Positions 49,363 through 64,000 of a stretch of 64,000 nucleotides of DNA are shown here, piece after piece. The notes beneath the pieces were generated by a model that had not been told where the DNA came from, did not search any database, and worked only from the letters and a program-made list of their open reading frames with translations. The stretch comes from Candidatus Magnetominusculus dajiuhuensis (GTDB taxonomy: Bacteria > Nitrospirota > Thermodesulfovibrionia > Thermodesulfovibrionales > Magnetobacteriaceae). The translations under genes were made by a program, and so were the position numbers. Within the stretch, counting starts at the first letter, position 1; every line of letters begins with the position of its first letter. The stretch spans positions 1 to 64,000 of the forward strand of contig JADFXP010000013.1 of NCBI GenBank assembly GCA_015233465.1. The letters run 5' to 3'.

Positions 49363-52300
49363 CTACTCCGTTTCAACTGACCTCAAAAGAAGCGGTAAAA
49401 ACAAAAGTATCATTATAGTTCCAACAAACATCCCTCCAACTACCACAATGGCAAGAGGTTTTTGAACCTGACTCCCAATTCCATGGGACATTGATGCAGG
49501 CAGTAATCCAAATGATGCTACAATTCCACCCATAAGCACTGGCCTGAATTTATCCGTTACAGTCTCTATTATCGCAGTCTCCTTGCTTAAACCGTCTCTA
49601 ATCAGCCTGATATAATGATTTATAATAATAGATGAATTAAGCACAGAAACCCCAATAATTGAAATAAATCCAACCATTGAAGACACACTAAGAGATTCCC
49701 CTGTAATCAGCAGACTCATAAGCCCTGCAAACACTGAAAATAATGGAGAAGCCATAGTTATAAATACATTTTTTACAGACCTATAAAGTATATATAAAGA
49801 TGTAAGAATCAGGAAAAACGATATTGGCACTGAGACAGAAAAACGCTTAAAAGATTCTTTCATCTCATTAAACATCCCGCTCCACATCATGAAATATCCC
49901 TCTGGAAGCTGAATCTTAGACGTTGCAGCCTGAGCCTTTGCAACAGTGCCTCCAAGGTCTTTTGAGGTAACTGAAAACTTTACAGGTATATATCTCCTAA
50001 ACCCTTCTCTATAGATAAATGACGCTCCAGTATCGTAATGGATATTAGCTACCCTTGAAAGTGGAACAACTCCTCCGTTTGAAAGGACAAGCGGGATGCT
50101 TGAGATCTTTCCATAAACCTTTTTATATTCAGAAGGAAAACTGACCATAAGTGAGAAACTCTTCTCTCCTTCAATTACCTTGCTTATCTCTTTGCCGCCA
50201 AGTGCGGCTGAAACTGTATCAAGCACATCCTGTACAGTCAGTCCAAGTGCAGAGACATTCTCCCTATTTACCTCTATTAGCAGATTAGGCTGTCCTAATT
50301 CCTTCATTATTCCCACATCTTCTATGCCAGCGGTCTTTTCAAGACCATCTTTAACACCTTTTGCTGCTTCTTCAAGTTTAATCAGATCATCGCCAAAAAT
50401 CTTTACTGAATTCTCACCTTTGACTCCAGACATTGCCTCTTCAAGGTTATCCTCTATATATTGTGACAGATTAATGTCAGCATTTGGAAAAAGAGCCTTT
50501 AATTTTTCTCTAATATTATCTTCAAGCAGTTCTTTTGTCTGTCCTGCCTTCCATTGATCATAGGGCCTGAGCATTACATTGTATTCTGTATTAAAAGGAC
50601 CAGAAGCATCTGAGCCGTCTTCAGGTCTTCCAGCCTGAGATTGAACGGTCTGTACTTCAGGATAAGTGAGCAAAATATCATTTACCTTTAAAGAATTTTC
50701 ATATGACTTCTCCAGTGAAATAGAAGATGGAAACACTATCCTCATATAAATATTGCCTTCATCCATCTTAGGCAGAAACTGACTGCCTATCATATTTCCC
50801 CCTATTATTAGCCCAGCAGCAACAACAGTAAATACTATAATAAGCGCCTTCTTCGTATTTGGAAGCAATATCTTAACAACACGGATATATCCAGCATTAA
50901 GATACCTTACAAAACCGAATTCCTTGTCATGTACATTTCTCAAAAAAAGACTCTTCGCTGCCACAAGATATGTAAAAGTCAAAATCAAGGTAAATACAAT
51001 TGCATATATATAAGTCTTTGCCATAGGGGAGAAAATCTCCGCTTCAGCTCCCTTCATCATAAATATAGGAATAAATGCTAAGAGTATAATCATGATTGAA
51101 AAAAACATCGGTTTGCTTACCTCAGACGCTGCCTTCTCAATTGACCTTAGTCCAAAACCATAACGCTTAGACAGCCTAAAATAGTCTTCTATGAGTATAA
51201 GAGGAATATCTACAATAATTCCGAAATCTATAGCGCCAATAGATAGCAGATTAGCAGAGTCCCCTTTTAACGCCATAATAGCAAGGGTTATCAGCAGAGA
51301 TATCGGGATTACAAAGGCAGTGATAAGGGCTGCCCTTACATTTCCAAGAAATAGAAATAACGCTATTGCAACAAGCGCAATACCTGATAATGCAGTTTCA
51401 ATAACCTTCTTAACCACTGTAATAATAAGGTTCCACCTTTCATAAAAAGGGGAAACCTTTATTCCCTTTGGAAGTATTCTCTTATTTAGTTCTCTAATCT
51501 TATGATGTATAGATTTTATTGATGGAATACTCTGAGCTCCCTTTCTAAGAACCACAGTGCCCCTTACAATGTCATGATTATTATTCATTGAGGCTATTCC
51601 AGTTCTCGGGAAATTACCGATAGAGACCTGCGCAATATTTTTTATAAGTATTGGTTTCCCATTTTTTACAATCACAAGGGCATTATTAATATCTTCAAGG
51701 CTTTTGATAAGTCCTAATCCCCTGACCATATAATATTGATCACCCATCTCAACAACCCTTCCGCCAACATTCAGATTCGTCTTTGAAAGGGCATCAATGA
51801 CCTGAGAAAGGGTTATTCCAAATTTGACTAGATTTTCAGGCTGTACAATAACATTATAGGTCTTTATATACCCTCCAAAACTTGGCACATCCTCAACTCC
51901 GTCTGCTGTCTTTAGATACCTTGAGACTGTCCAATCCTGAATAGTCCTTAATTCAAGCAGATTATCAGAACCTGTTATAGTATATCTCATAACCTCGCCA
52001 ATAGGATTTGGAACAATAGAAGGTTGTATACCTTCAGGCAGCGTTACATTTGAAAGCCTGTTAATAACCTCCTGCTTTGCAGATTTATAGTTTATTGCAT
52101 AAGAAAACTTACACTTTATATCAGAAAGCCCATAAAGAGATATTGAATTTATCCTCTCAAGCCCCTCCATGCCTGCAAGTGCTATCTCCGTAGGAATGGT
52201 TATCTGCCTCTCCACCTCTTCTGCAGACCTGCCTTCAAACAAAGATGTAATTTCTATGATAGCTGGCGCTGGATCTGGAAATGCCTCAATATTTAGATCT

Positions 52301-52392
52301 CTTACAAAAAATAAAGAGATAATAAACCCTGCCATTATCAGGAGTAGAAATAAAATACTATTATCACTAACAAATAAAACCCATTTTCTCAT
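49363..52392 (-). CDS. HME-type RND heavy-metal efflux pump (CzcA/CusA-like)
   Basis: A 1009-residue RND transporter. TM4 carries DFGIIVDIPLILIED: Asp389, Asp395 and Glu402 match the D/D/E proton-relay and metal signature of CzcA-type pumps. Twelve membrane helices with two large periplasmic loops are as expected; NIEAFPDPAPAIIEI is the usual N-terminal porter start. It exports divalent cations such as Co, Zn, Cd or Ni. The exact metal is unknown: methionine pairs of CusA are not evident. It overlaps the membrane-fusion gene by 4 bases and is last in the tripartite operon. Confidence 0.93.
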   Translation of the reverse strand: MRKWVLFVSDNSILFLLLIMAGFIISLFFVRDLNIEAFPDPAPAIIEITSLFEGRSAEEVERQITIPTEIALAGMEGLERINSISLYGLSDIKCKFSYAINYKSAKQEVINRLSNVTLPEGIQPSIVPNPIGEVMRYTITGSDNLLELRTIQDWTVSRYLKTADGVEDVPSFGGYIKTYNVIVQPENLVKFGITLSQVIDALSKTNLNVGGRVVEMGDQYYMVRGLGLIKSLEDINNALVIVKNGKPILIKNIAQVSIGNFPRTGIASMNNNHDIVRGTVVLRKGAQSIPSIKSIHHKIRELNKRILPKGIKVSPFYERWNLIITVVKKVIETALSGIALVAIALFLFLGNVRAALITAFVIPISLLITLAIMALKGDSANLLSIGAIDFGIIVDIPLILIEDYFRLSKRYGFGLRSIEKAASEVSKPMFFSIMIILLAFIPIFMMKGAEAEIFSPMAKTYIYAIVFTLILTFTYLVAAKSLFLRNVHDKEFGFVRYLNAGYIRVVKILLPNTKKALIIVFTVVAAGLIIGGNMIGSQFLPKMDEGNIYMRIVFPSSISLEKSYENSLKVNDILLTYPEVQTVQSQAGRPEDGSDASGPFNTEYNVMLRPYDQWKAGQTKELLEDNIREKLKALFPNADINLSQYIEDNLEEAMSGVKGENSVKIFGDDLIKLEEAAKGVKDGLEKTAGIEDVGIMKELGQPNLLIEVNRENVSALGLTVQDVLDTVSAALGGKEISKVIEGEKSFSLMVSFPSEYKKVYGKISSIPLVLSNGGVVPLSRVANIHYDTGASFIYREGFRRYIPVKFSVTSKDLGGTVAKAQAATSKIQLPEGYFMMWSGMFNEMKESFKRFSVSVPISFFLILTSLYILYRSVKNVFITMASPLFSVFAGLMSLLITGESLSVSSMVGFISIIGVSVLNSSIIINHYIRLIRDGLSKETAIIETVTDKFRPVLMGGIVASFGLLPASMSHGIGSQVQKPLAIVVVGGMFVGTIMILLFLPLLLRSVETE

Positions 52393-53474
52393 TGTTTTTC
52401 CATATCAATCGCGCTGCTCACTATCTCATCTCCGTCTTTAAGCCCCTCAACTGCCATTAATTTATTAGAAACATCCTTTACAGCCTTTACCTCTGTCAAC
52501 ACTACCTTTTCGCCAGACTTTACATTGACATAAAATTTCTCATCTTTATAGATGATCGCTGACTTTGGAACTATTGGAAGTAATCTTTCTCCATCAAAAA
52601 TATTAATCTTTAGAAACATATTCTGTTTAAAATAATCCATACCCTTTAAAATCTTTATATAGACCTTAATCGTCCTTGAATCCATATCCTCAACATCGCT
52701 GACATATGAGACAATGCCTTTAAATTGTGTATCTGGAAATGTATCAACTGCAAAGACAACCTCTCTGCCTTTATGAATCTTCCTAATATCCGTATCATAG
52801 ATATTTGCTACAACCAACACCTTATGCGGATTGGCTAAGGTCATCAAGGCAGTTGCAGTATCAAACCTATCTCCTATGTGCGCCGTAATGTCAGCAACAC
52901 ATCCATCAATCGGAGCTTTTAAAGTCAATCTGTCAGCAGAGGTATTTTTAGTATATGTGCCGTATATATCCAGCTTCCTCTTTAAACCTTCTGATATTGC
53001 CTTTGCCTGTTCAAGATTAGCCTCGCTCCCTAAAAGGTCATTTTTTGTAACTGCCCCAACGTCAAAGAGTTCTTTATTTAGATTATAAAGCCTCTCAGTC
53101 TGTTTAATCTGCGTGAGAGATGAAAGGTAGCCGGCATAAATATCTGTCATATCAGAGCTTTTAATAACTGCAAGTGACATTTCTTTTCTTACACAGTCGC
53201 CAATCTTTACAAAGATATTCTCAACAGAACCCTGCAGAGGAGAAAGAATCTTTGCCCCTCCCTCAAGATCTGGCTGAATGCTTCCGCTGCCTTCTATATA
53301 TGACGGAACTTTTTGAAAAACTACCTTAGCAGTATGTAATTCAACTTTTTTATCCTCTATTGCCTCATTTTTAGGAGATGTGCCTTTGCTGCAGCTCAAT
53401 AAAAGAAAAAGGGTTAAAATAAAAACAATATTTATCCTATGTTTATGGGTGACGCCCCTCGACTTTATTATCAC
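52389..53474 (-). CDS. Efflux membrane-fusion protein (CzcB-like)
   Basis: The 361-residue lipoprotein starts with a signal and LLLSCSKG lipobox. GSIQPDLEGGAKILSPLQG and VKIGDCVRKEMSLAVIKSSD form the lipoyl halves, followed by a hairpin (NLNKELFDVGAVTKNDLLGSE), LTLKAPIDGCVADITAHIGD, and a beta-barrel (VLVVANIYDTDIRKIHKG). It bridges the RND pump to the outer-membrane channel. Overlaps of 4 bases exist with both flanking genes. Confidence 0.92.
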   Translation of the reverse strand: MIIKSRGVTHKHRINIVFILTLFLLLSCSKGTSPKNEAIEDKKVELHTAKVVFQKVPSYIEGSGSIQPDLEGGAKILSPLQGSVENIFVKIGDCVRKEMSLAVIKSSDMTDIYAGYLSSLTQIKQTERLYNLNKELFDVGAVTKNDLLGSEANLEQAKAISEGLKRKLDIYGTYTKNTSADRLTLKAPIDGCVADITAHIGDRFDTATALMTLANPHKVLVVANIYDTDIRKIHKGREVVFAVDTFPDTQFKGIVSYVSDVEDMDSRTIKVYIKILKGMDYFKQNMFLKINIFDGERLLPIVPKSAIIYKDEKFYVNVKSGEKVVLTEVKAVKDVSNKLMAVEGLKDGDEIVSSAIDMEKQ

Positions 53475-54706
53475 AATATTTCTCCTGTATAGACCTTTAA
53501 TAATTCTCTGTTCAAATTTCCCTGCACCAAAGCCTGATTATATTTGGTCATAAAATCCCTGTATGTCTTTTCTGTGTCAAGGAGGTCAAGAATTGTTATT
53601 CCGCCAAGTGAAAATGCCTTTTCACTCCTTGCCTTTAAATCATCCAAATCACTTTTCCTGCTCTTATATGACTCGAATATATGTATAGAACTTGAATAAT
53701 TATTTAGCGCCTGTCTAATATCAGAGACAATCTGCCTCTTCACCTTATCCCTCTCAGCTTGAAGCTGATATAACTCAGCCTGTCTTCTTGCTATCTCGCC
53801 TTGATTTCTATTAAAAATTGGAAGCGGTATGCTAATGCCAAAACCTATGCTTGGGTTATTCCATCCTTCAACAGTCTCAAACTCAAGCCCAACTGTGATA
53901 TCTGGAACTGCCTGAGACTGCGCCAATTGCTTGTTAAATTCAGAGGCATTAATCTGCTTTTCAATTGAAAGCAGATCAAATCTGTATTGATATGCCCTTT
54001 GTAATAGGTCATCTTCCGTGTTTCCAGAAAAATCCTCTCTAACCGATAAAGATGGTTTTAGCGGGGTAGAACTCCCAAGCAGGAAACTAAATTGCTCTAT
54101 ATCATTATTCATCTGTGCCTGCAAAGTTGAAAGATTATTCTCAAGGTCAATACGCGCAATCTTTAATTTTGCATAATCAACGTAGGATAAAAAACCTGCA
54201 CGAAATCTACGATCTGCTATCTCTAATGTCCTGTCAAAACGCTTTAATTCTTCCTTAGCCAGTTCAGCATTGAGAATATCAGCGTTAATATTAAAAAATA
54301 ACGTATAAAAACCAATAAGAAGAAGCCTCACTGTGTCTTTTTGCGTCAACTTGACTGCCTCAATAGTAACAGATGCGAAATCTGAGCGAAGCCCCCTTTT
54401 GCCTCCAAGTTCAATCAATTGGTCAACTCTTAAAGTGGTCTGCGTATTATCGGTTGTACTTGGAAAACCCTTCAGCCCAATAAAAGAATAATTAAAACTT
54501 AGGTTTGGATTAGGGATAAGCCTTGCAGCAATATAGTCAGCCTGAGCCTTATCAATCTCATATTTACTTATCAGAATATCATAGTTATTACTATAAAACG
54601 CACTCAAAGACTGCTCAAGATTAATACCATCCTCTGCCGAAAGCGCGCCCACTCCCAATAAAACAAACACAATAACTATAAAAAATCCTATAATCCTATT
54701 TTGCAC
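53471..54706 (-). CDS. TolC-family outer-membrane channel (CzcC-like)
   Basis: The 411-residue protein has an N-terminal signal (IIGFFIVIVFVLLGVGALSA) and two OEP repeats, with helical hairpins such as LEQSLSAFYSNNYDILISKY and RRFRAGFLSYVDYAKLKIARI. GGITILDLLDTEKTYRDFM is the typical closing helix. It forms the outer-membrane exit of the metal pump. It is the first gene of the operon and overlaps the fusion protein by 4 bases. A promoter with palindrome lies upstream. Confidence 0.92.
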   Translation of the reverse strand: MQNRIIGFFIVIVFVLLGVGALSAEDGINLEQSLSAFYSNNYDILISKYEIDKAQADYIAARLIPNPNLSFNYSFIGLKGFPSTTDNTQTTLRVDQLIELGGKRGLRSDFASVTIEAVKLTQKDTVRLLLIGFYTLFFNINADILNAELAKEELKRFDRTLEIADRRFRAGFLSYVDYAKLKIARIDLENNLSTLQAQMNNDIEQFSFLLGSSTPLKPSLSVREDFSGNTEDDLLQRAYQYRFDLLSIEKQINASEFNKQLAQSQAVPDITVGLEFETVEGWNNPSIGFGISIPLPIFNRNQGEIARRQAELYQLQAERDKVKRQIVSDIRQALNNYSSSIHIFESYKSRKSDLDDLKARSEKAFSLGGITILDLLDTEKTYRDFMTKYNQALVQGNLNRELLKVYTGEIL

Positions 54707-55198: not shown

Positions 55199-55366
55199 AT
55201 GAAACAAACCGAATTTGCACAAGTGCAGATAGTAATAGAAGATGCAACTCAAAACATTATGGATATTCCAGATGAATTAGCGCCAGCATTTAGAGAATTA
55301 ATGGCGAAAGAAAGACATTTAAACATTATTACTAATATATTGATAGGAGGAATTAAAAAGTGTTAA
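55199..55366 (+). CDS. Small protein at the head of the chemotaxis operon (hypothetical)
   Basis: A 55-residue product, [20 protein letters not shown] then [20 protein letters not shown], with an AAAAGG ribosome binding site. Its last codons (GGIKKC) contain the ribosome binding site and overlap the GTG start of the chemoreceptor by 7 bases, so the two are coupled. No family is recognised. The amphipathic, acidic character suggests a soluble helical protein. Confidence 0.6.
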
Positions 55367-57117
55367 AAAACATGTCAATTGGAGCAAAGCTCATTTCAGC
55401 GTTTATGCTAATAGCATTAGTTGTCTTGGTATCAGGTATTTTCCAGTATGTCAAGATCAAAGAACAAAATGAATTATCAAAGTTAGTAGCTGAGACAAAT
55501 GATAGAGTCCGTACAATCGGCAACACGGTTACATTCTCTCATATAGTAGGCAAAATAAAGTATCAAATGATGCTTGATAAGAGTGCAGATAAATTCAATC
55601 CCCGCAAAGAGTCATTTAACGAAGCTGCCAAGAATATGAAGATAGATGTAGAAGCAATGCTTAATGGCGGAAACAACGATAAGGGAGATAAAATCTTACC
55701 TACTAAAAACGCTGAAGTTATAACTTTCTTAAAAGATACGCTAAATGATTATCCTGAATGGCTGAAGGTAACTACAGAAATTATTGAGACATTAGATAAA
55801 AGGATTAAGGGAGACAATGACCCTGAACTTACTGCAAAGGTAGACCAATTAGAGGTAAAAAGTGACACTCTTGCAAAAAAGATGAGGACTCAGTGCGAAG
55901 GGGCAAAGGCAAAGATGATTAGTACTGTTGAACAGAGGACAAAGGAATATGACGCAGTAGTATCTGCCACAACCTCTGCTATAGTTACCTCAATTATAAT
56001 TACATTAATACTTGCAATCGCCTTAGGCATAATAATCTCACGGATGATTACTTCACAGATGAATAAGGTTATAACCGATCTATCTGACGTTACACACGGC
56101 GTAAGTTCCGGAGCACATCAGATAAATTCAGCATCTGCCCAGGTCTCAGATTCAAGCCAAAATATTGCTGAAGGCGCAAATAATCAAGCAGCATCCCTTG
56201 AAGAAACATCCGCTTCCCTTGAACAGATGTCTGCAATGGTCAAACAAAACGCTGATAACTCTAAACAGGCTGCTTCTATGTCATCAAATACAAGCAAGTC
56301 TGCAGCAAAGGGAAAAGAGGCAATGGCTAAGATGTCTACTGCCATTGAAAAGATTAAAACATCCTCTGATGAAACTGCAAAGATTATTAAAACTATAGAT
56401 GAGATAGCATTCCAGACCAATCTTCTTGCACTAAACGCAGCAGTAGAGGCAGCAAGGGCGGGAGAGGCAGGAAAGGGATTTGCCGTTGTTGCTGAAGAGG
56501 TAAGGAATCTTGCCCAGCGCAGCGCTGAGGCAGCAAAGAATACAGCAGAATTAATTGAAGAATCTCAAAAGAATTCTGATAATGGAGTTGCTGTTTCAAC
56601 TGAAGTTGGCGGAATTTTAAATGACATAGTAGAAGGTATACACAAGGTAGGGCAGCTTATCAATGAGGTCTCAGCTGCTACAGATGAACAGTCACATGGA
56701 CTTGATGAGATAAATAAGGCAGTATCAGAGTTGGATAAGGTAACGCAGGGAAATGCCGCTAATGCTGAAGAAACTGCATCAGCCAGCGAAGAGCTTTCAG
56801 CTCAGGCAGCAGAGCTTGGAGATCATGTAAAGAGACTTGGAGAGGTAGTTCAGATAACAAGGGCATTAATCGGCGGGGCATCGTCAGCGAATCTCCTTGC
56901 ATATGACAGCCATTCTGAAAGAGTCGAGCCAGTAAGAAAGGCAGTGCATACTAAGACCATAACGCCTAAGAAATATGTCCCCTCTGAATCTGAACACAGG
57001 AGTCATTCAAAACGACGTTTAGATAATGCACATCATGAAGAAGCTCCAAAGGGCCGCAGATCATCTGAGGCAAGAGATATTATACCTTTAGATGATAATG
57101 AGCTTGATCAGTTCTAA
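55360..57117 (+). CDS. Methyl-accepting chemotaxis protein
   Basis: The 585-residue receptor has TM1 ([19 protein letters not shown]), a periplasmic four-helix-type sensor (about 30-200), TM2 ([19 protein letters not shown]), a HAMP linker and a signalling domain whose tip is [20 protein letters not shown] then [20 protein letters not shown]. The C-terminal tail is basic and His-rich ([20 protein letters not shown]). The start is GTG at 55360, with GGAGG 9 bases upstream; the internal ATG at 55372 is too far from it. First large gene of the che operon. Confidence 0.94.
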
Positions 57118-57190
57118 GGATAGATTAAGGGCAGAGTGCCGCGGCATCTACTCTATGGTTTTACAAAGTAAATGAATAGGAGGGTTAAAA

Positions 57191-57709
57191 ATGGATGATG
57201 TAAAAGAGCAATCCACAAGTGATAGACTGCTAAAGGCAGGCAAATATCTCACCTTTGAACTTGGAAATGAGATATACGGACTTGAGATACTAAAGGTGCA
57301 AGAGATAATTGGGATGATGAATGTAACTCGTGTGCCAAAGACTGCTACTTATGTACGCGGGGTAATTAATCTTAGGGGCAAGGTAATACCTGTAATAGAC
57401 TTACGTCTTAAATTTGGGCTTGAGGCAAAGCCAGATACTGAACGCACATGTATAATAGTTGTAAAGATAGAGGTAAAACAGTTAGAGATGACTATGGGCA
57501 TCATTGTTGATGAGGTATCAGAGGTATTGGACATTCAAACCAGCCAGTTAGAAGAGACCCCTTCATTTAGCTCTAATATGAATACTGATTATCTATTAGG
57601 TATTGGCAAGGTAGAAGAAAAGGTAATCATGCTGCTTGATATAGATAAGGTTCTTTCGAATGCGGAAGAGGCAGAATTATTAAATATCGCAAACAAAGAG
57701 GAGAAATAA
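57191..57709 (+). CDS. cheW: Chemotaxis coupling protein CheW
   Basis: The 172-residue protein is a CheW SH3-like double barrel: YLTFELGNEIYGLEILKVQE, VPKTATYVRGVINLRGKVIP and VIDLRLKFGLEA. It links the receptor to CheA. A GGAGGGT site precedes its ATG. It lies 73 bases after mcp and leads to the CheD-like gene. A N-terminal extension of about 18 residues before the core is usual. Confidence 0.95.
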   Translation: MDDVKEQSTSDRLLKAGKYLTFELGNEIYGLEILKVQEIIGMMNVTRVPKTATYVRGVINLRGKVIPVIDLRLKFGLEAKPDTERTCIIVVKIEVKQLEMTMGIIVDEVSEVLDIQTSQLEETPSFSSNMNTDYLLGIGKVEEKVIMLLDIDKVLSNAEEAELLNIANKEEK

Positions 57710-57732
57710 CATGACAAAAGAGAGAGAGACCT

Positions 57733-58224
57733 ATGTATAATATATCTTTGTACATTGAGCCGGGGAATGTCTTTTTTTCAAAGAAACCTCACAGGATGTC
57801 AACTGTAGTAGGAAGCAGCGTTGCTGTATGTCTTTGGGATAAGAAAAATAAGTGCGGAGCAATGAGCCATTTTATGTATCCGTACATCAGAGACAAAGAG
57901 CAGGCAACACTATGGTATGGAAATGTAGCTATGATTACACTGATTAAATTGATGGACAAATCTGGCATCAACAGACATGACGTTGTAGCCCAGATACTTG
58001 GCGGGGCTCGTTCAAGCAATGAAAACGAGATAAATAACATGGGACAGGAAAATATCAGCGTTGCTAAAAAGGCACTGGCATTTTATAAAATCCCAATTGT
58101 TGCAGAAGATGTAGGCGGGATCATTGGCAGAAAAATTGTATTTGATTCAACAACTGGTCATATAGCAGTCTTAAAGGTATTTGACTTAAGACAGAGCGAC
58201 TGGTATACTAAATATCCTCAATAG
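57733..58224 (+). CDS. CheD-like protein with catalytic Cys replaced by Ser
   Basis: The 163-residue protein has the CheD fold: MSTVVGSSVAVCLWD, CGAMSHFMYP, ILGGARSSN and IVAEDVGGIIGRKIVFD. CheD deamidates receptor glutamines with a Cys-His-Thr triad (Thermotoga Cys27, His44, Thr21). Here the motif reads GSS where GSC is expected, so Ser29 replaces Cys27; His46 is kept, and Ser23 takes the Thr position. It is probably inactive as a deamidase, or uses Ser. A second, standard CheD begins at 63923. It lies between cheW and cheR, and a 9-codon frame (57711) precedes it. Confidence 0.85.
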   Translation: MYNISLYIEPGNVFFSKKPHRMSTVVGSSVAVCLWDKKNKCGAMSHFMYPYIRDKEQATLWYGNVAMITLIKLMDKSGINRHDVVAQILGGARSSNENEINNMGQENISVAKKALAFYKIPIVAEDVGGIIGRKIVFDSTTGHIAVLKVFDLRQSDWYTKYPQ

Positions 58225-58229
58225 ACATA

Positions 58230-59036
58230 ATGGATGACAAAACTTTCAATAAATTTAGAGCCTTAGTATTTAAAAAGAGCGGGATATATCTAAGGGAGAA
58301 TAAGAAATCATTGTTATTGTCCAGATTGGGCAAGAGAATGAGGGATTTAGACATAAAGGATCACAAGGACTATCTTAATTATATCTTAAATGATAATTCT
58401 GGACAAGAGATAGTCCAGTTTCTTGATGTTATAACTACCAATGTAACGTCTTTCTTTCGAGAGGAAAAGCACTTTGAGGTGCTGACTCAATACATGAAAC
58501 AATGGCTAGGCGAGGGCCAAAGAAAGTTCAGGTTTTGGTCTGCAGCATGTTCAAGCGGCGAGGAACCCTACAGCACTGCAATTACCTTGCTTGAGGCAAC
58601 TAAAGGGTATCAGGTTGACATGAAGATATTGGCAACAGATCTCTCAACAAGAATACTTGCCAGCGCCAAAAAAGGGGTATATACTGAAGATAAAATATCA
58701 ACTGTAAAAAAACCTATGCTTTCAGAGTATTTTAAACGTGTGACAGATGAAGGACAAAATTTATATATAGTCAAGGATTCTGTTAAATCTATAATCTCAT
58801 TTAACAGCATAAATCTCTCAACACCTCCCTTTAAGATGAAGGGGCCATTTGATGCAGTATTTTGTCGAAATGTTATGATATATTTTAATAATGACACAAA
58901 AAGCGCATTACTAAAAGATATTGCAAGGTTATTAAAGTTAGGAGGCATACTATTTGTTGGACATGCAGAGTCACTCACTGGACAGCTGTCAGAGCTTAAG
59001 GCTATAAAACCCTCTGTGTATTTTAAAGAAAAATAA
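58230..59036 (+). CDS. cheR: Chemotaxis receptor methyltransferase CheR
   Basis: The 268-residue enzyme methylates receptor glutamates. It has the helical N-terminal domain (FRALVFKKSGIYLRENKKSL), SAM motif FRFWSAACSSGEEPYSTAI, and GPFDAVFCRNVMIYFNNDT. No tetratricopeptide extension is present. It follows the CheD-like gene by 5 bases. Confidence 0.95.
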   Translation: MDDKTFNKFRALVFKKSGIYLRENKKSLLLSRLGKRMRDLDIKDHKDYLNYILNDNSGQEIVQFLDVITTNVTSFFREEKHFEVLTQYMKQWLGEGQRKFRFWSAACSSGEEPYSTAITLLEATKGYQVDMKILATDLSTRILASAKKGVYTEDKISTVKKPMLSEYFKRVTDEGQNLYIVKDSVKSIISFNSINLSTPPFKMKGPFDAVFCRNVMIYFNNDTKSALLKDIARLLKLGGILFVGHAESLTGQLSELKAIKPSVYFKEK

Positions 59037-59132
59037 TTATAATTTAATATAGATTTTAATGACAGAAGAAGAATATAATATACAGAAATAGTAACATTTT
59101 AATTTTACAGTATAAATATCAAGGAGGCGGTA

Positions 59133-59510
59133 GTGGCACATGATCTAAAGATACTCGTAGTTGATGATTTTGCTACTATGAGGAAGATTGTACGTAATCT
59201 GCTTAGACAACTTAATTACAATCAAGTTCAAGAAGCTGAAGACGGCGAAGTGGCATTTAGGATGTTACAGTCAGAAAAATTTGATTTTGTTGTAACAGAT
59301 TGGAATATGCCAAATATGACAGGACTTGAGCTGCTTATTTCTATCAGAAAAACTCCGTCGCTTGCTAAACTGCCTGTATTAATGGTAACGGCAGAGGCAG
59401 ATAAGGAAAACATCCTTGCAGCTGCTAAGGCTGGGGTTAATGATTATGTAATCAAACCCTTTACTGCGACAACACTTGCTGATAAGATAAAAAAAATATT
59501 TAAACTATAA
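59133..59510 (+). CDS. cheY: Chemotaxis response regulator CheY
   Basis: The 125-residue receiver has [20 protein letters not shown], phospho-acceptor in [17 protein letters not shown], Thr in [11 protein letters not shown] and Lys in [13 protein letters not shown]. The start is GTG at 59133 with AAGGAGG (59121-59127) in place. It links CheA to the flagellar switch. Confidence 0.95.
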
Positions 59511-59560
59511 TATTTTTAGAACATATTTTAATTGTTAACGTCATATTGGCGGAGAAATAG

Positions 59561-62500
59561 ATGTCAAAAGAACCTTTAATAAATGCTATAAATGATATAT
59601 CATTAAACCTTATAGAGATGGATCTTGAAAATCCTGACGACCTTTCCTCACTCCTAACCTCATTTAAAGAAATTAGCGCTAAGTCCGAATCTTGCGGTGA
59701 ATCAGTAGCACTTAAGGCTGCATCAAAGGCCGTTATAATCATTCAAAAAATAATAAATAAAGAAAGCCAACTTGATAAGCAAGGCGCATTTGAAACACTT
59801 TCACTAACCATTACTGCATTACAAGAGCTTATTATAAACTTTCGTCCAGTTGAAGACATCGCCTTTCCTGACGAACTTGGTATGGATGATGAAGAGTCAA
59901 TTGCTGTTACTACTGAGGAGACCGCCAATGCCCTTGATTCAACCCAGATACCTGAGGTTATTGAGATTGCAGCAGAACCAGCAGCAGATCAGCCAATAGA
60001 TTTAGATAACGCAGGCTTTGAAAAATTACAAAATTCTATTAATGAACTTTCATCTATGATATTACTGGCAAATGCTGAAAAGATGGAAGATGTAGTGGTT
60101 ATTCTAAATTCATTTGAAGCAATAAAAAATGAGGCATCAGAATTAGGACAAGAGAAGATTTCTAATAAGGCTCAAACTGCTTCTGAGATTGCAAAACAAA
60201 TCTTATTTGATGATATTCATGATAAAAAAGCAGTAATAGATACATTATATCAGACAGTAAAATACATGTCTGGGATTTTAAACGGAGACACTGAGATTGA
60301 AGAACCTTCTTTAACAATAGATTCAGCCCCTCCAGCAGCTATAGAGGAATCTGCTCAAATATTAGCACAGCATGATGCAGCATATCCTCAAAGGATTATA
60401 GAGATAATCACTGACCTCGCTTCTAAGATAAAAGAGGCTGACTTTGAATCCTTACAAGATATTGCAAATATACATTCAATATATGAAGAACTGTTTCTCA
60501 TGGCAAAAGAAGAGGGACAAGACTTTATCCATCAAGAGGCTGTAAAATGCGCAGAGATTGCAAGAAAGATGGTAATGGATGAGGTTGAAGATAAAAAAAC
60601 CTCATTTGAGATAATTTCAACTGCATCTCTATCATTAAATGAGATTGTCACTGGAGGCGGAGTTGCTACAGAAGAAAAACCAGTGCAAACAGAAGAGCCT
60701 GCAGCAGATGAAACTCCTATCCAGAAAAATCTCCCAATATTAATTGAAGAACTGGTAAAGGCACTTAGCACAGCTGAGGTAGATAGTCTGCAAGATATAG
60801 CAAATCTACATTCAGCTTATGAAGTTATAACAGAAATGACAGCAGTAAACGGACCAGAGATTGTACATCAGGCAGCAGTTAAATGTACTGAAATTGCAAA
60901 AAAGATGGTTATGGATGAGGTTGAAAACAAAAGCGCCTCATTTAATACACTATATATGGCAGCTCAATCAATTAAAGAAATAGTGATTGATGGAAGACCT
61001 AATGATCAAACTGCGTTTCCTCAAGAACTGGGATTTCCTAAGGTTGAGGCAGCTGTTAAACAAGATGTTGAGAGTAAAACCGAACCAAAAGAACCAGAAA
61101 GTGAGGGAGGCGAAATTTCAAAACAAAGCACACTTTCTGATTTAGTAAAATATCTTGCATCCAGCATCAGCACAGCAGATGTTGAGAGTCTGCAAGACAT
61201 CGCAAATCTTAACAGCACATTTGATGAAATCTCAACAAAAGCCTCTGAGCAAGGGAAAGAGCTTATCCATAAGGCAGCTGCATATTGCGCTGAACTTGCA
61301 AAGAAGATAGTTATGGGTGATGCTGGAGATAATAATGCTGCATTTAAGGTATTATCCTCTGCATCAGCAGCCATTTTTGAGGTTATTATTAACGGCAAAT
61401 CAGATGACCAAGCAGGTTTTCCAGAAGAATTAGGACTTAATATAGTTAAAAAAGCTGTCCCTGTTGAAAAAATAGCCCCTGCTGCGGTTAAGCCTGCGCC
61501 AGCTAAACCTGCTCCTGTCAAACAAGATATTCCAGCTAAAAAACCAGCTCCAGCAATTAAACTCCCTAAAAATGTTAATCAAGAGATACTTTCTGAATTC
61601 CTTTCAAAACAAGAAGAAACCCTTGAGGGGATTGAAAATGCAATACTTGAACTAGATAATAAGAAAACTGAAGAATCTTTCTCAGAATTAAAACGCATAC
61701 TACACACCCTGAAAGGCGAATCAGGGATGCTTGGTCTAAATCAAATATCTAATATATGTCATGTAGTTGAGGACTATATTGCCGCAAATTCGCTGCATAC
61801 AGACACTGACAGACTCTTTGAGTTTAAAGACTGGTTATCTGAGACATTCCGTTATTTATCTGGAACGAGTTCTACATTAAGCATCACTGAAGAATATATA
61901 TTACAGAGATTTTCTACAACTCATGACACAAAATCACTTGTTGAAAATGCAAAAAAGGAAGCTGAATCAACGGCTGTAGAGAATATTACTGAAGCAAAGG
62001 TAGAATCTCAACCTGAATTTAGCGAGACAGAGGCGCATCTGGAAGGCGATATGTCAATATTAGCCGACTTTGTAGGAGAGGCGCGGGATCATCTGGACTA
62101 TTTAGATACTCATCTGCTTGAACTGGAAACTGACCCTGAAAATTCTGAGACATTAAACGCTGTATTTAGGGTATTTCATACAATTAAAGGCACTGCTGGC
62201 TTTTTAATGCTTTCAGAGACCGAAAAACTTGCCCATCATGCTGAAAACTTACTTGATAATGCGCGTTCTGGCAAGGTTCCCTTAAATGCCATAAGCATTG
62301 ATATAATCTTTGACACAGTAGATATGTTAAAGACCCTGATAGATCAAATAAAGGGAGCACTTGATACAGGCGGAACGTATATTATTAAGACTCAATACTA
62401 TAGTATACTTGAGAGCATCAAGGCATTCCAAGAAAACAGGACAATCATTAAACCAGAACCAAAATACATAGCTCCAGATGGGAAGCGTATTGGTGATATA

Positions 62501-63877
62501 CTTTTAGATCAAGGCAAGGCTACTAAAGAGGCAATAGATACTGCGGTTATGACTAAGGAGATATTTGGCGATCCTTCCTCTAAACTAGGAGAATTCTTAG
62601 TAAAAGAAGGGATTAAACCAAAAGACGTTGCCCATGCCTTACGCAGTCAGAACCTTCCTACAGAACAAAGCACTGAAAAGATAAAGGTTAAAAAGGCGCT
62701 GCGAGTGGATGCAGACAGGCTTGATGCAATGGTTGACACCATTGGTGAATTGGTAATCATAGCATCTATGATCTCTCAAGATAAAGATGTCAGACGGGCT
62801 GCATCTAAGAATTTCCTTAAAAATCTAGCGCTTTTGGATAAAATCACCAAAGAACTTCAAAACTCAAGCCTTTCGATGAGAATGGTGCCTGTTAAGGCAA
62901 CCTTTCAGAAAATGGCTCGAATGGTTCGAGATTTGGCAAAGAAAAGCAATAAAAATATTAATTTTGCAATGTATGGCGAAGATACTGAATTAGATTCATC
63001 TGTAATTGAGATGATAAGCGACCCATTGATTCACCTTGTGCGAAACGCAATAGATCATGGAATAGAGGCAAACCCTGATGACCGCGTAAGGGCTGGGAAA
63101 AAAGAGGCTGCAAAGGTCTCTCTTCATGCCTTTCATAAAGGTGGGAATGTCTATATTCAGATACGTGATGACGGAAAGGGATTAGATAAAGATATTATCT
63201 TAAAAAAGGCAATGCAAAAAGGACTTCTGAAAGAAGGACAAAATCTATCTGCAGATGAAATACATAATCTAATATTCTTACCGGGTTTTTCAACAAAGGA
63301 TGTTGTAACAGATGTCTCTGGACGCGGCGTTGGGATGGATGTAGTTAAGAGAAATATAGAGTCTCTAAGAGGGACAGTTGAGATAGATACAGAACTTGGC
63401 AAGGGCAGCACATTTTCACTGCGTCTGCCATTAACTCTTGCTATAATTGATGGAATGCTGGTAAATGTTGGAAAAGAGATATATATAATACCTACAATTT
63501 CTATAGTTGAATCACTTAACCCCAAACAAGACGATATAATGACTGCCTTTGGGACAATAGAGATGATAAAGGTCAGGGGCGAGTTGATAGCATTATTCCG
63601 CCTTGCGGGTTTATTTGATGTAAAAGATGCTAAGACAGATATAACAAAGATGCTGGTAGTTGTAGTAGAGGATTCAGGCAATAAGGCAGCTATAGCAATA
63701 GATAATCTGCTTGGCCAGCAATCAACGGTTATAAAGAGTCTCGGAGAAAACTTTCAAGGCATACCGGGCATATCAGGCGGAACTATACTTTCAAACGGAC
63801 AAGTTGGTATAATCATAGATGTTGGGGGAATTGTCAAACTTGCAAAGACTATTACTGCTAAAAATATAAAAGATTAA
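59561..63877 (+). CDS. cheA: Giant CheA histidine kinase with five N-terminal repeats and two Hpt domains
   Basis: A 1438-residue kinase; typical CheA has about 650-750. Five similar helical repeats come first, at about 1-110, 150-245, 275-365, 385-495 and 515-630, marked by SLQDIANLHSAY and KCAEIARKMVMDEVE blocks. After a Pro/Ala linker, Hpt1 (RILHTLKGESGM, His715) and Hpt2 (RVFHTIKGTAGF, His873) follow. A GspE-N-like segment (GKRIGDILLDQGKATKEAID) is at about 974-1030. Then come dimerisation (about 1040-1110), HATPase (HLVRNAIDHGIEANP, VSGRGVGMDVVKRN) and a CheW-like end (from about 1290). Confidence 0.94.
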   Translation: MSKEPLINAINDISLNLIEMDLENPDDLSSLLTSFKEISAKSESCGESVALKAASKAVIIIQKIINKESQLDKQGAFETLSLTITALQELIINFRPVEDIAFPDELGMDDEESIAVTTEETANALDSTQIPEVIEIAAEPAADQPIDLDNAGFEKLQNSINELSSMILLANAEKMEDVVVILNSFEAIKNEASELGQEKISNKAQTASEIAKQILFDDIHDKKAVIDTLYQTVKYMSGILNGDTEIEEPSLTIDSAPPAAIEESAQILAQHDAAYPQRIIEIITDLASKIKEADFESLQDIANIHSIYEELFLMAKEEGQDFIHQEAVKCAEIARKMVMDEVEDKKTSFEIISTASLSLNEIVTGGGVATEEKPVQTEEPAADETPIQKNLPILIEELVKALSTAEVDSLQDIANLHSAYEVITEMTAVNGPEIVHQAAVKCTEIAKKMVMDEVENKSASFNTLYMAAQSIKEIVIDGRPNDQTAFPQELGFPKVEAAVKQDVESKTEPKEPESEGGEISKQSTLSDLVKYLASSISTADVESLQDIANLNSTFDEISTKASEQGKELIHKAAAYCAELAKKIVMGDAGDNNAAFKVLSSASAAIFEVIINGKSDDQAGFPEELGLNIVKKAVPVEKIAPAAVKPAPAKPAPVKQDIPAKKPAPAIKLPKNVNQEILSEFLSKQEETLEGIENAILELDNKKTEESFSELKRILHTLKGESGMLGLNQISNICHVVEDYIAANSLHTDTDRLFEFKDWLSETFRYLSGTSSTLSITEEYILQRFSTTHDTKSLVENAKKEAESTAVENITEAKVESQPEFSETEAHLEGDMSILADFVGEARDHLDYLDTHLLELETDPENSETLNAVFRVFHTIKGTAGFLMLSETEKLAHHAENLLDNARSGKVPLNAISIDIIFDTVDMLKTLIDQIKGALDTGGTYIIKTQYYSILESIKAFQENRTIIKPEPKYIAPDGKRIGDILLDQGKATKEAIDTAVMTKEIFGDPSSKLGEFLVKEGIKPKDVAHALRSQNLPTEQSTEKIKVKKALRVDADRLDAMVDTIGELVIIASMISQDKDVRRAASKNFLKNLALLDKITKELQNSSLSMRMVPVKATFQKMARMVRDLAKKSNKNINFAMYGEDTELDSSVIEMISDPLIHLVRNAIDHGIEANPDDRVRAGKKEAAKVSLHAFHKGGNVYIQIRDDGKGLDKDIILKKAMQKGLLKEGQNLSADEIHNLIFLPGFSTKDVVTDVSGRGVGMDVVKRNIESLRGTVEIDTELGKGSTFSLRLPLTLAIIDGMLVNVGKEIYIIPTISIVESLNPKQDDIMTAFGTIEMIKVRGELIALFRLAGLFDVKDAKTDITKMLVVVVEDSGNKAAIAIDNLLGQQSTVIKSLGENFQGIPGISGGTILSNGQVGIIIDVGGIVKLAKTITAKNIKD

Positions 63878-63922
63878 AACACATAAATCATTTAACTTTA
63901 AAAGAGGGTTTTATATAAGATA

Positions 63923-64000
63923 ATGCCAATAAACGGTTGCAATAGAGTAGTTGTAGGAATTTCTGATATGAAGATTTCTAGTAATCCAAATGATTATATA
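63923..64000 (+). CDS. cheD: CheD receptor glutamine deamidase, N-terminal part
   Basis: The window ends inside this gene. The first 26 residues read MPINGCNRVVVGISDMKISS then NPNDYI, the typical CheD opening (VVVGISDMKVS.NP...I), which in canonical members is followed by TYALGSC. It would be a second CheD next to cheA. The catalytic Cys region lies beyond the window. Confidence 0.75.
   Translation, partial: MPINGCNRVVVGISDMKISSNPNDYI

Follow-up and report, generated by a model that had tools for sequence, protein, structure and literature searches.

The receptor glutamine deamidase CheD of Thermotoga maritima has Cys27, His44 and Thr21 as its catalytic residues, and in Bacillus subtilis CheC gives phospho-CheY feedback. 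Binding and deamidation by B. subtilis CheD are hard to separate because one protein does both. The CheD-F102E variant deamidates at approximately normal levels but shows poor binding to CheC and to receptors, and its chemotaxis defect equals that of a cheD null, which indicates that in this organism binding outweighs catalysis (PMC3513319). The Met101-Phe102 pair of the same protein sits at the interface with CheC (PMC3513319). Elsewhere in the deamidase fold, the Cys-to-Ser mutants BLF1 C94S and NTAN1 C75S are both inactive, yet BLF1 C94S keeps substrate binding (PMC8960835).

We analysed a window of 64,000 nucleotides, positions 1 to 64,000 of contig JADFXP010000013.1 (C4) of Candidatus Magnetominusculus dajiuhuensis, and the adjoining part of that contig. 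The window ends within a chemotaxis cluster with the gene order MCP - CheW - CheD1 - CheR - CheY - CheA - CheD2 - HDOD - receiver - CheX - CheB - CheX. Because cheD1 lies 23 bases 3' of cheW and 5 bases 5' of cheR, this part of the cluster has the appearance of an operon. The features on which the analysis draws are as follows:

55360-57117, plus strand: MCP receptor with a conserved C-terminal tail (Pfam MCPsignal, 1.3e-46)
57191-57709, plus strand: CheW (Pfam, 1.9e-40)
57733-58224, plus strand: CheD1, a CheD bearing the DW tail, with Ser29 in place of the nucleophile, probable pseudo-deamidase (Pfam CheD, 4e-22; AF2; Foldseek)
57817-57819, plus strand: Ser29 codon AGC, where deamidases carry Cys (sequence; aligned with the Cys of 2F9Z_C)
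57868-57870, plus strand: His46 codon, catalytic His retained (17 residues after Ser29; aligned with the His of 2F9Z_C)
58189-58203, plus strand: R153-Q-S-D156-W157, the C-terminal R-x-x-D-W signature (R and D fixed in 54 of 54 subfamily members, W in 49 and Y in 5; absent from the other CheDs examined)
58230-59036, plus strand: CheR methyltransferase, starting 5 bases past the cheD1 stop (Pfam, 8.4e-58)
59133-59510, plus strand: CheY-type receiver (Pfam, 1.2e-31)
59561-63877, plus strand: CheA, 1438 aa, with two Hpt domains and a long repetitive N terminus (Pfam; sequence)
63923-64000, continuing to C4:64417, plus strand: CheD2, with the canonical T-Y-S-L-G-S-C...H (Pfam, 1.3e-26; sequence past the window; 2F9Z_C, 9.6e-23)

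CheD1 is encoded by an intact open reading frame of 163 aa. It matches the Pfam CheD model (PF03975) with 78.9 bits against a curated cut-off of 25, and the AF2 model of the protein (mean pLDDT 93.6) has chain 2F9Z_C, the T. maritima deamidase, as its top Foldseek match (E 4.7e-14; TM 0.81/0.85). The NCBIfam CheD equivalog scores do not discriminate, as CheD1 (118.7 bits; cut-off 223) and the canonical CheD2 (121.8 bits; cut-off 240) both fall below the threshold. CheD1 resembles T. maritima CheD (PDB 2F9Z; PF03975) in fold, in length, in its His and Thr and in its position in a chemotaxis cluster, but differs from it in having Ser for Cys, an R-x-x-D-W tail and an accompanying canonical CheD. 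The active-site stretch reads S23-T24-V-V-G-S28-S29-V-A-V-C, with GSS in place of G-S-C. In a phmmer alignment with 2F9Z_C, S29 falls on the Cys and H46 on the His, and the distance of 17 residues from Ser29 to His46 equals that between Cys27 and His44 of T. maritima CheD. The alignment bears out the initial annotation, which had read AGC at 57817-57819 as a Ser codon at the nucleophile position and had noted that the His is kept. Profile and fold place CheD1 in the CheD family, but its nucleophile position sets it apart from the CheD deamidases. Because the Pfam CheD model begins past the nucleophile position and is blind to its loss, CheDs without the Cys will be annotated as deamidases.

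Scanning genome contigs with the CheD1 sequence alone recovered no relatives; these were recovered by an alignment-based scan. In a set of approximately 76 CheD homologues from 100 related genomes, the Cys was missing only from CheD1 and one unrelated protein. That protein (L064:5364-6083), from a genome of the same order that has further CheD copies (G085), is a CheD of another type that reads VVGTS, and it was the sole non-Cys CheD found outside the subfamily described here. In the wider scan, the closest relatives of CheD1 were found in a Chitinispirillales (Fibrobacterota) MAG, in L079 (labelled Proteobacteria) and in L080 (labelled Cyanobacteria). A C-terminal tail of the form K-V-x-x-[LM]-R-x-x-D-W is common to CheD1 and these three relatives and was found in no other protein among 158 CheDs compared. 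Profile searches in the phyla of the three genomes yielded a set of 54 distinct members, which we call DW-CheDs; the phylum labels of their genomes come from the L078-L080 records, and many of these genomes are probably metagenome assemblies. No further DW-CheD of comparable score was found in 396 genomes of Nitrospirota, and no additional one in the 244 genomes searched from the phylum of L080's genome. CheD1 carries all three marks of a DW-CheD, namely the R-x-x-D-W tail, the profile match and a second CheD in the genome.

At the nucleophile position, 29 of the 54 DW-CheDs have Cys, 12 have Gly, 7 have Ser and 6 have Ala, so that 25 of 54 lack the Cys, compared with 1 of 220 CheDs outside the subfamily (Fisher p=2e-19, a figure that is uncorrected for kinship and inflated by it). 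A tree from which the two catalytic columns had been left out gave about nine independent losses of the Cys (bootstrap 9-11), and these separate losses do not depend on that p value. The seven Ser members represent seven separate changes on the tree. The catalytic His is also gone, replaced by Tyr, Asn or Ser, in 6 of the 25 non-Cys members and in none of the 29 Cys members (p=0.007). All 54 proteins keep G90, G91, N107, D126, G129, G132, R133, R153 and D156. CheD1, which had initially been described as a single odd gene, is instead one case of a recurrent pattern in its subfamily.

The Ser could be a product of gene decay after duplication, or of an assembly error, with the lost activity not replaced, a reading that we regard as very improbable. 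AGC is a single base away from TGC, and the DW-CheD of relative G548 (L266:8416-9000) has an in-frame TAG after 'QQIL', beyond which the frame resumes, so that the gene is broken or its assembly is in error. The CheD1 gene, however, is an intact reading frame in an operon-like cluster and has a confidently predicted fold, and its subfamily combines about nine recurrent losses and fixed non-catalytic residues with low dN/dS in non-Cys relatives (0.20 and 0.10 in two pairs and 0.06 in a third whose dS is saturated; as dS is saturated in several pairs, only the first two values are sound). Since Ser, Ala or Gly occupies the nucleophile site in 24 other genomes with subfamily members, a sequencing error in this one codon, although possible, is unnecessary as an explanation of Ser29. 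The nearest relative of CheD1 (L310/G806) has Cys, and loss in the CheD1 lineage therefore rests on one genome.

Taken with the repeated appearance of Ser, Ala or Gly in the subfamily and the absence of His from some members, the inactivity of BLF1 C94S and NTAN1 C75S suggests that the deamidase activity of CheD1 has very probably been lost, as the initial annotation proposed. Those mutants resemble what is proposed for CheD1 in that a Cys-to-Ser change abolishes catalysis and allows substrate binding (PMC8960835); they differ in being engineered and in acting on other substrates, whereas the change in CheD1 is natural. It is possible that CheD1 itself has a weak Ser-based activity, because it keeps Thr24 as well as His46. 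A stronger version of this idea, in which Ser29 is an alternative nucleophile and CheD1 an amidase or esterase that is slow or has changed its specificity, would make use of these retained residues and of the seven separate changes to Ser, but we think it improbable: sister lineages carry Ala or Gly and some have lost the His, so that catalysis is dispensable in the subfamily, and BLF1 C94S and NTAN1 C75S show no activity (PMC8960835).

CheD2 reads T28-Y-S-L-G-S-C34...H51 (C4:63923-64417), with Thr, Cys and His all present. The initial annotation had seen only the canonical opening of this gene from 63923; the SLGSC and the His read beyond the window exclude the case of a second CheD lacking Cys. 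The source genome has two CheDs in total, alongside ten receptors. At least two CheDs occur in 55 of the 55 DW-CheD genomes checked; among relatives of the window genome that bear a CheD, the figure is 25 of 48, or about half. A partner CheD bearing the GSC motif is present in each of the 25 genomes whose DW-CheD lacks the Cys, and Cys and His are kept in 32 of 32 CheD2-type proteins. The retention of all catalytic residues in CheD2 and of an intact partner wherever the first copy has lost its Cys supports the earlier suggestion that the second CheD would supply catalysis.

The usual setting of a DW-CheD is a conserved cluster that also encodes CheR, CheD2, a receiver, CheX and CheB. Two arrangements are usual, CheD1 - CheR - CheD2 - (HDOD) - receiver - CheX1 - CheB and CheR - CheD2 - (HDOD) - receiver - CheX1 - CheD1 - CheB, and in some genomes CheD2 lies outside the DW cluster. 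In L079 a Ser-CheD is directly 3' of a Cys-CheD. There (L079:5099-6131) and at L255:7845-8849, a Ser- or Ala-DW-CheD stands in tandem with an ordinary Cys-CheD from a different clade, immediately before cheB, a pairing unlike that of CheD1 and CheD2.

The initial annotation had also offered CheC or CheY as a partner for which CheD1 might act as a binding decoy, and for CheC the idea finds no support. No clear CheC was found in the source genome, which is 92.5% complete; its sole match to the CheC model is a CheX-like gene at C4:67636 that scores far better as CheX (4.5e-22) than as CheC (2.9e-5). Opposite the residues S-M-F of T. maritima CheD, CheD1 has R-S-S and CheD2 has S-I-L, and the Met-Phe pair that contacts CheC is absent from CheD1 and, in the alignment, from the DW subfamily. 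Because a clear CheC and the contact pair are both missing, a CheC-binding decoy is unlikely.

We think it likely that CheD1 is a CheD paralogue turned pseudo-deamidase, which attaches to receptors or to a partner but leaves them unmodified, and that CheD2 is the catalytic copy. By homology with receptor-binding CheDs, CheD1 would dock on glutamine-bearing receptor helices without deamidating them, or it may dock on another chemotaxis partner through the conserved GG, DxGGxxGR and R-x-x-D-W residues. Once bound, it could tune receptor-CheA activity or shield modification sites, as CheD does in B. subtilis by binding receptors, and deamidation itself would be done by CheD2. As there is no clear CheC, feedback from phospho-CheY would fall to one of the CheX-type proteins of the same cluster, which is a guess. 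The proposed primacy of binding over catalysis recalls the CheC/CheD/CheY-P system of B. subtilis (PMC3513319), but there CheD is an active deamidase with a CheC partner, whereas the CheD1 genome has only CheX-type proteins and CheD1 lacks the Met-Phe pair.

CheD1 might instead inhibit its own enzymes, as a decoy that competes with CheD2 and with CheR and CheB for receptor sites, or as a partner of CheD2 or of the neighbouring CheX, and so limit modification. That CheD2 is always present, mostly in the same cluster, and that cheX1 adjoins cheD1 in several genomes would suit such a role; with the CheC-contact Met-Phe pair missing and no clear CheC in the genome, we consider it unlikely. It shares much with the explanation given above, from which it departs chiefly in the sign of the effect. 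Binding by a pseudo-deamidase beside a catalytic CheD2 is the reading that we prefer for CheD1. For the subfamily, there is perhaps an even chance that DW-CheDs form a distinct branch of mainly non-catalytic receptor or array adaptors that work through the R-x-x-D-W face, in which the nucleophile drifts freely and two-CheD systems divide deamidation from kinase tuning. Since Cys and His are both retained in about half of its members, the subfamily is not inactive as a whole, and a non-catalytic role common to all of them is deduced. In the open-access literature searched, we found no description of an inactive or nucleophile-less CheD branch, or of a division of labour between two CheDs. If the reading of the DW-CheDs is true, it would represent a division of labour in chemotaxis for which we found no earlier description. 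Evolution has apparently split binding from catalysis many times, so that non-Cys CheDs standing beside an intact CheD allow the two to be tested directly.

In the loci compared, the window cluster's CheD1, CheR, CheA, CheD2, receiver, CheX1 and CheB are closer to their counterparts in G806, G817 and G838, genomes from the phylum to which the Chitinispirillales genome belongs, than to those of the window genome's own family, whose genomes were sampled around CheD genes only. On the tree, CheD1 stands beside the protein of G806, a Cys member (support 92/71). These placements fit horizontal transfer followed by loss of the Cys in the CheD1 lineage, for which support is moderate. The chemotaxis cluster as a whole (55360-64000 and C4:64000-67845) looks acquired.

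The conserved MCP tail (55360-57117, L268 and L269) is found on six of the ten receptors of the source genome, and a similar tail occurs on receptors beside DW-CheDs in other phyla. It is possible that this tail is a docking site for adaptation enzymes. CheA (59561-63877) begins with approximately five helical-looking repeats of roughly 100 residues each, 'DIANLNS'-like, that precede the two Hpt domains and have no Pfam match. Upstream of the cluster, on the minus strand (49363-54706), lie three genes whose translations, judged by eye, resemble an RND efflux pump, a membrane-fusion protein and an outer-membrane protein of the heavy-metal type.
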